Source: Candidatus Stoquefichus sp. (lineage in GTDB: Bacteria > Bacillota_I > Bacilli_A > Erysipelotrichales > Coprobacillaceae). From it: DNA of 64,000 bases. Under the pieces are notes generated by a model, which saw nothing but the letters and a program-made list of their open reading frames with translations, made no database searches and was not told the DNA's origin. A program made the translations under genes and the position numbers. Every line of letters begins with the position of its first letter. Within the stretch, counting starts at the first letter, position 1. The stretch spans positions 1 through 64,000 of the forward strand of contig JAETUM010000006.1 in NCBI GenBank assembly GCA_021768625.1, written 5' to 3'. Below are positions 8,660-53,227 of this stretch, one piece after another.

Positions 8660-8798
8660 TTTCTTTTGTTTAGATAAAGAATTTGACAATATTTTTTATT
8701 AAGTACTATAAGAAATTTTTTTGATTTTTTCACATATTCCTTTGATTATTTCAATAAGTTTATTGAATAAACTAAAGATGATAAGAGGAGGAGAATTT

Positions 8799-10241
8799 AT
8801 GATAAAAAATGCTTTTTTAAGTATTAAGAAAAATATTGGTAAAACAATAGTTTTGTTTATTTTGATGTGTGTTATAGCTAACCTTGTTATAGCGGGATTA
8901 TCGATTCAAAGTGCTACATCTAAGTCAATGGATCAAGTCAGAACATCGCTAGGAAATGAAGTGACATATTCTTATAATATGAAGAGTATGATGAGAGGGC
9001 GTGAAAAAGGTGAAGCATTAGATTCTGCAATTCAATCTATAACAGTAGAAATGGCAAATCAATTAAAAGAATTGCAATATGTGGATCATTATAACTATAC
9101 AGTTAATGTGAGTGTTTCAAGTGATGATATTGATCCAGTGAAAACAAGTGAGTCAGAAGATGACTCAACAACAAAAAGACAAATGCCACAAGGAAATCAA
9201 CCAAGAATGTTAGATCAAAATGATTTTACAGTTGTTGGGAACACAACAATGGCATACATTAGTGAGTTTACAAAAGGAAATTATGTTTTAAAGAGTGGAA
9301 GACTATTAACAGAGAAGGATGAAAAAACAAAGAACTGTATTATTGAAACAAATTTAGCAACTGATAATGATTTAAAAGTCGGTTCTACATTTAAGGTAAC
9401 AGCAACTCACGATGATGAAGAAATATCAGAAACATTAAAAGTTGTAGGGATATATGAGGTTGAAACGACAGACCAAATGGGAGGAATGATGAGTAATCGT
9501 CAAAATCCCATGAATCAAATATATACAAGTTTACAAACCGCTCAAAAGCTAAATAATAGTACAACAAATATTTCAAGTGCTATATATTATTTAGATGACC
9601 CAGAACATATTGAAAAATTTAAAGAGTTAGCAGAATCAAAAAATATTATTGATTTTGAAACATTTACTTTAGATGCTAATGATCAAATATATCAAAGAAG
9701 TATATCATCATTAGAAAATATGGAATCTTTTGCGACAATCTTTTTATGGGTTGTTATTATAACTGGAAGTTTTATTTTATGTTTGATTCTCATTTTAACA
9801 TTACGTAGTAGATTTTATGAGTTTGGTGTTTTTCTATCATTGGGAGAATCTAAGATTAAGATTATTTTTCAACAATTTATTGAAATAGGAATTATTTTTT
9901 CCTTAGCGTTTGCTTTATCATTAACAACTGGAAAAATGGTTTCTAATGTTATGAGTGCAATGTTAGAAAGTTCTCAAAATAATAAAGAAGAAATGGTAAT
10001 GGAAATAAAGGATGATGATCAAACAGGAATACAAGGAAATAAAAGATTTGATAAAAATGATATTTTTGATAAGGCTATGCAGGCTCCTACTAATGAAAAT
10101 TTAGATGTTTCTTTAACAACAGAAACAATTATACAACTTGCTGAAATTACAGGGTTAATTTGTATAGCTTCTATTATTTTGCCATCTATTTATGTTTTAA
10201 GACTTTCTCCAAGAGAAATATTGATTAAAAAGGAGGGATAG
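8799..10241 (+). CDS. ABC transporter permease, FtsX/MacB type
   Basis: A 480-residue membrane subunit. One N-terminal membrane segment (about 20-42) is followed by a large extracellular MacB-like domain and then an FtsX domain with three C-terminal membrane helices (about residues 315-470). The third loop carries an Asn/Asp/Lys-rich insert. The start is the ATG 5 bases after AGAGGAGGAG. It is followed two bases later by its ATPase. Such pairs export peptides, antibiotics or lipids, or act as mechanotransducing stress sensors. No sensor kinase pair lies next to it, so the cargo is unknown. Confidence 0.85.
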   Translation: MIKNAFLSIKKNIGKTIVLFILMCVIANLVIAGLSIQSATSKSMDQVRTSLGNEVTYSYNMKSMMRGREKGEALDSAIQSITVEMANQLKELQYVDHYNYTVNVSVSSDDIDPVKTSESEDDSTTKRQMPQGNQPRMLDQNDFTVVGNTTMAYISEFTKGNYVLKSGRLLTEKDEKTKNCIIETNLATDNDLKVGSTFKVTATHDDEEISETLKVVGIYEVETTDQMGGMMSNRQNPMNQIYTSLQTAQKLNNSTTNISSAIYYLDDPEHIEKFKELAESKNIIDFETFTLDANDQIYQRSISSLENMESFATIFLWVVIITGSFILCLILILTLRSRFYEFGVFLSLGESKIKIIFQQFIEIGIIFSLAFALSLTTGKMVSNVMSAMLESSQNNKEEMVMEIKDDDQTGIQGNKRFDKNDIFDKAMQAPTNENLDVSLTTETIIQLAEITGLICIASIILPSIYVLRLSPREILIKKEG

Positions 10242-10243
10242 AT

Positions 10244-10918
10244 ATGGATGAGAAAGTATTAAGTTTTAATAAAGTTTGTTATTATTATAAAGATGGATCT
10301 AGACAAGTAAATATTTTAAAGGATGCATCTTATGATTTTGAAAAAGGAAAAACATATGCTATTGTAGGAGCAAGTGGTAGTGGGAAAACAACATCACTTG
10401 TTTTGGCGGGAGGATTGGACAATCCTAAGAATGGAACTATTCTTTATAAAGGGAAAAATATTTCAGAGATTGGATTAACGAAGTATAGAAGAGATTATGT
10501 TTCTATAGTTTTTCAATCATATAATCTTATTACCTACATGAATGCTATACAAAATGTTGTCAGTGCTATGGATATATCACATATTAAGGTGTCCAATAAA
10601 AAAGCATATGCTATGGAAATACTTAAAGAACTAGGATTAAATGAAGATGAAAGTAAACGTGATATTCGTAAGTTATCTGGAGGACAACAACAAAGAGTTG
10701 CTATAGCGAGAGCTATGGCTAAAGATGTTGATTTAATCCTTTGCGATGAACCAACTGGCAATCTTGATGAAGAAACATCAAAAGGCATTATTCAAACTTT
10801 TGTTCAATTAGCACATGAAAAGAATAAATGTGTTATTGTTGTTACACATTCAAAAGAATTTGCTTCGTGCTTAGATGTTCAATTAAGAATTCATCAAGGA
10901 CAATTACAAAAAGTGTAA
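10244..10918 (+). CDS. ABC transporter ATP-binding protein (MacB/LolD-like)
   Basis: A 224-residue ATPase that energises the preceding FtsX-type permease. It has Walker [10 protein letters not shown] (residues 42-50), a Q-loop in VFQSYNL, the signature [14 protein letters not shown] (about 144-157), Walker [13 protein letters not shown] and the H-loop VVTHS. The ATG lies 7 bases after GGAGGG and two bases after the permease stop, so the genes form one operon. The length and the DEPTGNLD motif place it in the MacB/LolD/FtsE exporter clade rather than in a nutrient importer clade. Confidence 0.93.
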
Positions 10919-10984
10919 AATAATAAATTGTTCACAGAGAATTCATATGATAAAGTTAATATATAAGTGTCTTAAGAAAAGACA

Positions 10985-11069
10985 TATAATAAAAATATAG
11001 GCGACCCCTCTCCCTGAATATTCAATCGTCTATAAATGAAAAGAACGTTTCCCCACGTTCTTTTTTTTG
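10985..11069 (+). ncRNA. candidate small regulatory RNA with two C-rich hairpin loops
   Basis: A consensus -10 TATAAT (10985-10990) is followed at the expected distance by a short unit with no convincing ORF. Hairpin 1 pairs TATAGGCGA (10996-11004) with TCGTCTATA (11026-11034) and exposes a loop starting CCCCTCTCCC. Hairpin 2 pairs AAGAACG (11041-11047) with CGTTCTT (11056-11062), has loop TTTCCCCA, and ends in a T-tract, so it is a terminator. The predicted RNA is about 72 bases. C-rich loops able to pair with Shine-Dalgarno sequences are known in RsaE/RoxS-type RNAs of Bacillota; the analogy is inference. No good -35 was found. A GTCTT / AAGAC repeat (10969-10983) overlaps the promoter. Confidence 0.6.
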
Positions 11070-11071
11070 TA

Positions 11072-11121
11072 TTTTGTACAACTTTTCTGCGTTTTGTACA
11101 CGTTATATTTCTTTTTATAAC
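11072..11121. repeat. 20-bp-spaced TTTTGTACA direct repeat and a GTTATA dyad
   Basis: TTTTGTACA occurs at 11072-11080 and again at 11092-11100, exactly two helical turns apart, each containing the palindrome TGTACA. A GTTATA / TATAAC dyad (11102-11107 and 11116-11121) follows. They lie just upstream of the small gene at 11173 and may be operator sites for an unidentified regulator. Confidence 0.35.
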
Positions 11122-11172: not shown

Positions 11173-11373
11173 ATGAATGAATATAATATGTTTAGAATTG
11201 AAATGGTTAATGAAATATTATTAGGTGTTGCAGAACTAAGGTATTATAAAGTAAATATAAATAACGATTATGGGAGACCATCTTATTTAAATCTATTATC
11301 AGATATGGATCTTGAAAGAATATACAATCAAATTTCTGATAAATTAAAAGAAGTAAAGGTTGCTTATAAATAA
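11173..11373 (+). CDS. small hypothetical protein, 66 residues
   Basis: I do not recognise a family. The protein has no membrane segment or signal peptide. The C-terminal half (LSDMDLERIYNQISDKLKEV) looks helical and amphipathic, while the middle is rich in Asn and Tyr. A good AAAAGGAGAG ribosome binding site 9 bases before the ATG argues that it is real. It is alone, downstream of the candidate small RNA terminator and of paired TTTTGTACA repeats, and is closed by a 13-bp inverted repeat. Confidence 0.6.
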   Translation: MNEYNMFRIEMVNEILLGVAELRYYKVNINNDYGRPSYLNLLSDMDLERIYNQISDKLKEVKVAYK

Positions 11374-11500: not shown

Positions 11501-12289
11501 TTAAATGATATGAAAGTGTTTTAAAGCATGTTCAATACCATTGGCTTTTATATGTTTTGTACGATAAGTCACAAGATCAAAAAGAAGGGGATGACTATTT
11601 CCCATGGCTACAGATTCTTTTGTATAAGATAGCATAGGAAGATCATTTGTTGAGTCTCCAATACTTATTGTTTGTTCTAGGGGTATATGTAGATAATCTA
11701 TTAATGTTTGAATACCAGTAGCTTTAGAATATCCTTTAGGAACAACTTCAATAAAATTAACATCTCTTTGAATAATTTCAAAATAAGGTTCTAAGAAATC
11801 TTTAAAACGCTCAATATCAGCATTTTCATCATACCATGCAGCGAACTTATCAAACATAACAACGTCATGTTGATTATATATTCCTACGTTGAATCCCTCA
11901 TCAATATATCTTTGTTGAAATTGACAAATAAGTGGTTGATAATTATTTTCTAAGAAATAAACACCATTTTTTCCTTCTAAAACGGTTTCTATTTTACATT
12001 CAAAAGTCATTTGAATAACTTTTTTTCTTAAATCATAAGGTAATTCAGTATGAAAAATATTTTGATGATGATATTCAATATATGTTCCACATCCACAAAT
12101 ATATCCATCAAATTCAATATCTTTGACTTTTTGATCAATAGTTGAGATAGGTCTGCCTGTGTTAATCACACATATATGTCCATTTTTCCTGGCTTGAGAA
12201 ATAGCTTGTATAGTTGATTGAGGAACAGTTGCTGTTTCTTCATCAAGTAATGTTCCATCTATATCAAAAAATATAATTCGTTGATTCAT
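11501..12289 (-). CDS. Cof-type HAD-IIB phosphatase
   Basis: A 262-residue cytosolic haloacid-dehalogenase hydrolase. Motif I FFDIDGTLLD near the N-terminus supplies the nucleophile and acid Asp, motif II is the Thr in VINTGRP, and motifs III/IV are a Lys in KGYSKATGIQ and the Asp pair in ISIGDSTNDLPML. The cap is of the IIB type, as in sugar-phosphate or FMN phosphatases, but the substrate is unknown. The start at ATG 12289 follows AAAAGGAGAAG; the longer frame would start inside that site. The gene is monocistronic. Confidence 0.85.
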   Translation of the reverse strand: MNQRIIFFDIDGTLLDEETATVPQSTIQAISQARKNGHICVINTGRPISTIDQKVKDIEFDGYICGCGTYIEYHHQNIFHTELPYDLRKKVIQMTFECKIETVLEGKNGVYFLENNYQPLICQFQQRYIDEGFNVGIYNQHDVVMFDKFAAWYDENADIERFKDFLEPYFEIIQRDVNFIEVVPKGYSKATGIQTLIDYLHIPLEQTISIGDSTNDLPMLSYTKESVAMGNSHPLLFDLVTYRTKHIKANGIEHALKHFHII

Positions 12290-12402
12290 CTTTCTTCTCC
12301 TTTTTTCATTTATCATAACGATAATTGATTAATTGGTCAAGAAGAAGGCAGTGTTTTTTATTATAGTTGAACATATTGAAACAGAATTGCTTTATATGGA
12401 TA

Positions 12403-53067: not shown

Positions 53068-53183
53068 AGAAAGTCGCAATCAATATACCGTAGACAGCAA
53101 CGGGGTTACCTTAATTATGTTGCCGAGGTGATATTGTCAAATTACTTATTGACAACTCCCTCGTATATGTGTGGGAGTTTTTT
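53068..53183 (+). ncRNA. L10 ribosomal protein leader with attenuator
   Basis: The region carries the conserved L10-leader landmarks: ACCGTAGACAGCA, then TTAAT and TGCCGAGGTGA. It is followed by a terminator hairpin AACTCCC (53154-53160) / GGGAGTT (53173-53179) with a T-tract. Binding of L10(L12)4 to the RNA would stabilise termination and lower rplJ-rplL expression. The match is by recognition of the family landmarks and position. Confidence 0.85.
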
Positions 53184-53227
53184 AACGGATATATTGTTGC
53201 ATATAAAATTTAATAGGAGGTGTAACG

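Follow-up and report, generated by a model that had tools for sequence, protein, structure and literature searches.

The window, the whole stretch of 64,000 nucleotides that was analysed, carries between an ABC transporter operon and a HAD phosphatase gene what is, on comparative evidence, a real small-RNA (sRNA) gene of an undescribed family of the Coprobacillaceae. Members of the Coprobacillaceae and of their order Erysipelotrichales are common gut bacteria. The whole set of observations is quite probably best explained by a two-component system that drives the synthesis of redundant sRNAs directed against Shine-Dalgarno sequences. An OmpR/PhoB-type regulator would bind the direct repeat TTCACA-N5-TTCATA beside a weak promoter and so activate a three-hairpin RNA about 100 nt long. 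H1, the hairpin at the 5' end, probably protects that end, H2 would display CCCCUCUCCC and the terminator loop UUCCCC, and both loops would pair with G-rich Shine-Dalgarno sequences of the AGGGAGAG type, so that ribosome binding is blocked. The same regulator, presumably responding to an envelope-stress signal, would induce not only several RNAs of this kind but also cell-envelope genes.

A structured RNA conserved in the Coprobacillaceae

The features of the locus and its neighbors are given in Table 1. Folding of positions 10960-11080 yielded -25.8 kcal/mol, as compared with -12.3 kcal/mol for shuffled sequences (z = -4.83), with none of 200 shuffles as low, and H3 was the sole intrinsic terminator detected in 3 kb (1 versus 0.4 expected). 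These results bear out the two hairpins proposed in the initial annotation, the second of them a full terminator, and the C-rich loops described there are found in H2 and H3. No conserved open reading frame was found in the sRNA among its copies: the longest in-frame peptides vary in length, start and frame, and a coding function was discarded for this inconsistency, in agreement with the lack of coding potential already noted. Thus, the locus has the sequence features of an intrinsically terminated, trans-acting sRNA, namely its own promoter, structure, a terminator and no reading frame.

Table 1. Elements of the small-RNA locus and adjacent genes (window positions)
Feature	Positions	Strand	Remarks
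Direct repeat TTCACA-GAGAA-TTCATA (TTCACA-N5-TTCATA)	10931-10947	+	Probable response-regulator binding box
Probable -10 element TAATAT	10957-10962	+	9 nt downstream of box
Small-RNA gene, ~100 nt	10967-11068	+	Putative start 5-7 nt past -10; end at terminator T-run
H1, 5' hairpin GTGTCTT-AAGAA-AAGACAT	10967-10985	+	7 pairs, 5 changed on both sides
TATAAT (-10 of the initial annotation)	10985-10990	+	Inside RNA, in A/T linker between H1 and H2
H2, hairpin TATAGGCGA/TCGTCTATA, 21-nt loop CCCCTCTCCCTGAATATTCAA	10996-11034	+	9 pairs, 6 changed on both sides
Putative anti-Shine-Dalgarno loop CCCCTCTCCC	11005-11014	+	CTCTCCC core invariant
H3, intrinsic terminator	11038-11065	+	11 pairs, 9 changed on both sides
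H3 loop TTCCCC	11049-11054	+	Terminator loop
FtsX-type ABC permease	8751-10241	+	Neighbor outside RNA; Pfam FtsX
ABC ATPase	10244-10918	+	Neighbor; Pfam ABC_tran; LolD/MacB-like; stop 12 nt before box
Cof-type HAD phosphatase	11501-12292	-	Neighbor; HAD gene directly flanks RNA in Massilimicrobiota

Nothing near an Rfam gathering score was obtained at the sRNA locus, and a known Rfam RNA was therefore rejected; for a second sRNA of the same genome the FsrA model reached 19.3 bits against a gathering score of 80. Our searches of open-access titles and abstracts turned up no description of an sRNA from Erysipelotrichales, Coprobacillaceae or Clostridium ramosum, and a literature search on C-rich loops returned nothing. 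Across the whole window, Rfam recognized a single element, a ribosomal protein L10 leader (RF00557, 64.9 bits) at 53070-53192. Just 3' of the sRNA lies a 66-codon reading frame (11173-11373, start region GGAGAGAAAA) without Pfam match.

By DNA search the element is present in 17 of 60 relatives belonging to eight genera, frequently as a tandem of two or three copies. When named genomes, the only source of the taxon names used here, were scanned, it was located in Massilimicrobiota, Longibaculum muris (Longibaculum being a member of Coprobacillaceae) and Candidatus Stoquefichus; a Streptomyces match from the genome scan was dismissed as a GC-rich chance match. A covariance model trained on 23 copies, including that of the window, matched 30 of 43 Coprobacillaceae genomes in 10 genera and none of the 153 other sampled genomes of the order, some of the search counts being samples. 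The window locus itself was matched at 10963-11065 with 104.3 bits (E 1e-17), a score to be read with its copy being in the training set. The model also recovered genus g4, which was absent from that set: there, the first copies have GACCCCTCTCCC or GCCCCCTCTCCC within a stem of different sequence and the second copies have CACCCCCTTCTTCCCC.

The covariation check that the initial annotation had suggested revealed compensatory changes in all three helices. Base pairs altered on both sides numbered 20 of 27 (158 cells) and 93.9% of the pair cells were standard, these counts being taken on a model-fitted alignment in which some copies had been found via the promoter box. Shuffled controls gave 13.7 pairs and 46.5 cells, and with slid partners the maximum was 9 pairs and 25 cells. 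All 23 aligned copies and all 36 strong model matches have the loop core CUCUCCC unchanged, while the H2 stem that displays it and the terminator stem vary freely. An invariant loop carried on variable stems is the pattern expected of a displayed pairing site.

Promoter and size of the RNA

All 36 strong model matches are preceded at fixed spacing by TTCAYA-N5-TTCAYA, in full or degenerate form, and in all homologues a -10 element (TANNWT) lies exactly 9 nt after the repeat. The copies inspected among those found by DNA homology, a search made without the promoter motif, present the same or a degenerate repeat and TANNWT 9 nt on. The promoter scan detected no consensus forward promoter across 10931-10990, which fits a promoter that depends on an activator. 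As the -10 TAATAT is fixed 9 nt past the box, transcription would start near 10967, at the beginning of H1, and the predicted RNA would therefore comprise about 100 nt (from ~10967 to ~11068).

Two variations on this promoter were observed. An identical 32-nt copy of the sRNA promoter, devoid of the RNA body, is found at L021:2601, about 2.2 kb upstream of an sRNA pair. In genus g4 (L274, L277-L285), the first tandem copy of the sRNA has a TTGACA-type promoter and no box, and could thus be constitutive; in the second copy the box is retained.

The box marks a regulon that includes other small RNAs

The box followed at 9 nt by TANNWT occurred 121 times in 60 genomes against 10 times with the reversed control, and inside the Coprobacillaceae the sums were 114 and 5, respectively. 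In the genome of the window, TANNWT stands at exactly 9 nt in four of 14 unselected boxes. A degenerate search with two mismatches was at background level (149 versus 138) and was abandoned, so the regulon sites discussed here are exact or have one mismatch. Judged by these counts, the box plus the -10 element marks a regulon. The genes downstream of the box encode the candidate response regulator itself, an Mbl/MreB-type protein, a Zn_peptidase_2 protein and a P-type ATPase; sites with one mismatch precede genes for a MoxR ATPase, a protein with a RelA/SpoT domain and a membrane sulfatase. In front of dltABD of the same genome (dlt named from translated sequences, not by family search) a run of hexamers ends 9 nt before TAAAAT.

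Moreover, the box lies upstream of further short, C-rich, terminator-ended RNAs that are unlike the window RNA except in design. RNAs with ACUCCCUU stand behind it in five genera (g1, g6, g14, g15 and g17). The genome of the window has at least two more sRNA candidates, arranged in tandem on contig C19: that at L069:3061-3195, whose degenerate box was recognized by eye, combines a GTGTCGAAAGACA 5' hairpin with the terminator loop TTTCCCC, and that at L069:3216-3340 carries ACTCCCTT.

Candidate regulator

The candidate regulator is an OmpR-type response regulator encoded at L069:8456-9118, with the gene for a 667-amino acid histidine kinase following it. It reached no NCBIfam equivalog cut-off, the best model being PhoB, far below its cut-off. 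Orthologues with at least 76% identity exist in 13 genomes of six genera, and all 13 genomes have strong sRNA matches. Upstream of the regulator gene itself, the box (up to two mismatches, exact spacing) is present in 10 of the 13 orthologues. Among the remaining ones, G034 has a box variant one base shorter, and for G060 and G032 the true regulator promoter was not found in the fetched stretch (the G032 match is not counted; its locus begins inside the gene). Paralogues with 54-60% identity mostly have TACACA-like repeats upstream and a slightly different recognition helix, nearly the same as that of the candidate (IVDTYVKKLRKKL). In genera g4 and g11 the RNA is accompanied only by more distant regulators. 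Thus, it is likely that the regulator of L069:8456-9118 controls the sRNA, which would probably be switched on by a stress-sensing two-component system. Given the near-identical recognition helices and the want of a close orthologue in g4 and g11, the regulator may instead be a paralogue.

Putative targets

GGGAGAG, the complement of CUCUCCC, is a strong form of the Shine-Dalgarno sequence. The complementarity of the C-rich loops to ribosome binding sites put forward earlier is therefore upheld by the loop sequence and its invariant core, and the conserved loop probably masks the sites at which ribosomes would bind in other genes. GGGAGAG-N3..11-ATG was found 104 times in six genomes as opposed to 37 times for the reversed control. 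Among 64 translated candidates, the motif is common to cross-genus orthologues of folD (G000 and G034) and potA (G000 and G011), both named from translated sequences and not by family search. A 408-amino acid membrane protein also has the motif in G000 and G034, and its homologous 408-amino acid protein in g11 has AGGGAGAGG. Pairing of the candidates with the own sRNA loop was calculated by RNAduplex at -15 to -23 kcal/mol. These are three clear ortholog pairs against 0.6 expected by chance, a rough estimate in which shared descent may inflate the three. Since the difference is of this size and Shine-Dalgarno sequences are G-rich anyway, the target evidence is weak, and folD, potA and the 408-amino acid membrane protein can be taken as leads only.

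Two other approaches to targets were dropped. In two genomes of Massilimicrobiota the start site of a sugar transferase gene carries AGGGAGAG, which other genera do not conserve, and a screen of the genome of the window for the 7-mer GGAGAGG returned mostly chance matches within genes.

Comparison with known small RNAs

In Streptococcus, the csRNAs of the CiaRH system are transcribed from a box NTTAAG-N5-TTTAAG with the -10 element 10 nt downstream and have an unpaired stretch complementary to the Shine-Dalgarno sequence and AUG, and CiaH homologues were found only in streptococci (PMC3091779). In Listeria, LhrC1-5 are multicopy sRNAs under the envelope-stress two-component system LisRK and block translation initiation of their targets (PMC4132741). 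The best reading of our comparison is that the window RNA would work like csRNA and LhrC, from which it differs in its box, its regulator and the RNA itself. As with the csRNAs, there are several short terminator-ended RNAs per genome, a putative OmpR-type regulator, direct hexamers N5 apart, an unpaired sequence complementary to the Shine-Dalgarno and many RNA types under one promoter rule; a box, a spaced -10 element and a terminator occur within 250 nt at several genes per genome, although the spacing is 9 and not 10. However, the box here is TTCAYA-N5-TTCAYA in 36 copies, exact or degenerate, and not NTTAAG/TTTAAG; the recognition helix of CiaR is VVEVYVSKVRKKL, different from that of the candidate regulator; and the C-rich motif is placed in a hairpin loop and in the terminator loop, with an additional 5' hairpin, in a host of the order Erysipelotrichales. 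The redundant CU-rich UCCC sites in loops (CUCUCCC in H2 and UUCCCC in H3) recall LhrC, whose sites also occupy single-stranded stretches, but the sequence and promoter differ and envelope-stress control would be a presumed feature here. Since the box and the helix differ from those of CiaR and no Rfam family matches, the window RNA is not a member of csRNA or LhrC.

The RsaE/RoxS RNAs to which the RNA was initially compared share with it, as does FsrA, C-rich single-stranded motifs masking ribosome-binding sites. This general mode holds, whereas membership in the RsaE/RoxS family does not, as no Rfam family is matched. The csRNAs and LhrC are closer, being multicopy and controlled by two-component systems.

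On balance we lean slightly towards a wider proposal, a Coprobacillaceae-wide, undescribed layer of regulation in which an autoregulated two-component system controls several sequence-unrelated anti-Shine-Dalgarno sRNAs per genome as well as envelope genes. The design of CiaR-csRNA and LisR-LhrC would then have arisen independently a third time. Taken together, box, covariance model and regulator define a testable regulon. If true, the repeated independent evolution of redundant C-rich RNAs driven by two-component systems would argue for a general solution of Firmicutes to shut down translation of chosen genes during envelope stress.

Alternative explanations

The initial annotation had taken TATAAT for the promoter of a 72-nt RNA starting near 10997, with the GTCTT/AAGAC repeat (10969-10983) regulating it as a DNA operator. 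Such an arrangement would account for the perfect hexamer, for the ATAAT kept in the linker and for the overlapping palindrome, but at the -35 distance there is only TATAAG, the hexamer differs among relatives (CATAAT, AATAAT or TTAAT) and every copy has the box-spaced -10 upstream. The palindrome corresponds to the third RNA hairpin, H1, whose outer pair is of the types G-U, U-G, U-A, A-U and G-C; since retained G-U pairs and compensatory changes are expected of an RNA, the operator was rejected. That promoter is thus probably wrong and the shorter RNA unlikely, the predicted size being about 100 nt, and ~10997 may be a second, weaker start. Far more improbable is that the element only serves the ABC operon, as its terminator or part of its 3' untranslated region, or that it is an attenuator. 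Its position right behind the ATPase stop, with several relatives laid out similarly, would suit this idea, but copies with the same promoter occur in tandem and also next to different genes, among them a HAD gene, pyrG and prfA. Such copies at other loci speak against mere transcription through from the ABC genes and for an independent RNA.

It is also conceivable, with the same low probability as the 72-nt RNA, that the RNA does not pair with mRNAs and binds a protein, as a decoy for a C-rich-binding or RNA-chaperone-binding protein. The short invariant loop motif, the multicopy design and the failure to find a strongly conserved target would agree with this, but the words of the sister RNAs differ (CUCUCCC, ACUCCCUU and UUUCCCC), so that what they have in common is complementarity to the Shine-Dalgarno and not a single protein site. 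Slightly less probable still is that the RNA is real and directed against Shine-Dalgarno sequences, but has the Pho system (PhoP/PhoB) as its regulator. The OmpR-type hexamer repeats with their 11-bp period had first suggested phosphate-starvation control, and PhoB is the best model for the candidate regulator; this idea was set aside because the pstS box in the same genomes is different, TTTACATAATCTTAACA-like with TTTACA/TTAACA-type repeats, and the regulator does not attain the PhoB cut-off. Control of redundant anti-Shine-Dalgarno RNAs by a separate two-component system is thus the explanation we prefer.

H1-like hairpins at other loci

The leader region of pstS (L053, L055 and L057) contains a hairpin much like H1, with GTGTCTTGAAAGACA in L053, and such hairpins may be shared as a 5' end element within the Coprobacillaceae. 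In genus g11 (L014:1501-1700 and L016), an H1-like sequence precedes a gene for a small membrane peptide (MEKLSNKG.. or MEKLSNRG..-like), which has a sigma-70-like promoter, TTGACG-17-TATATT in L014.
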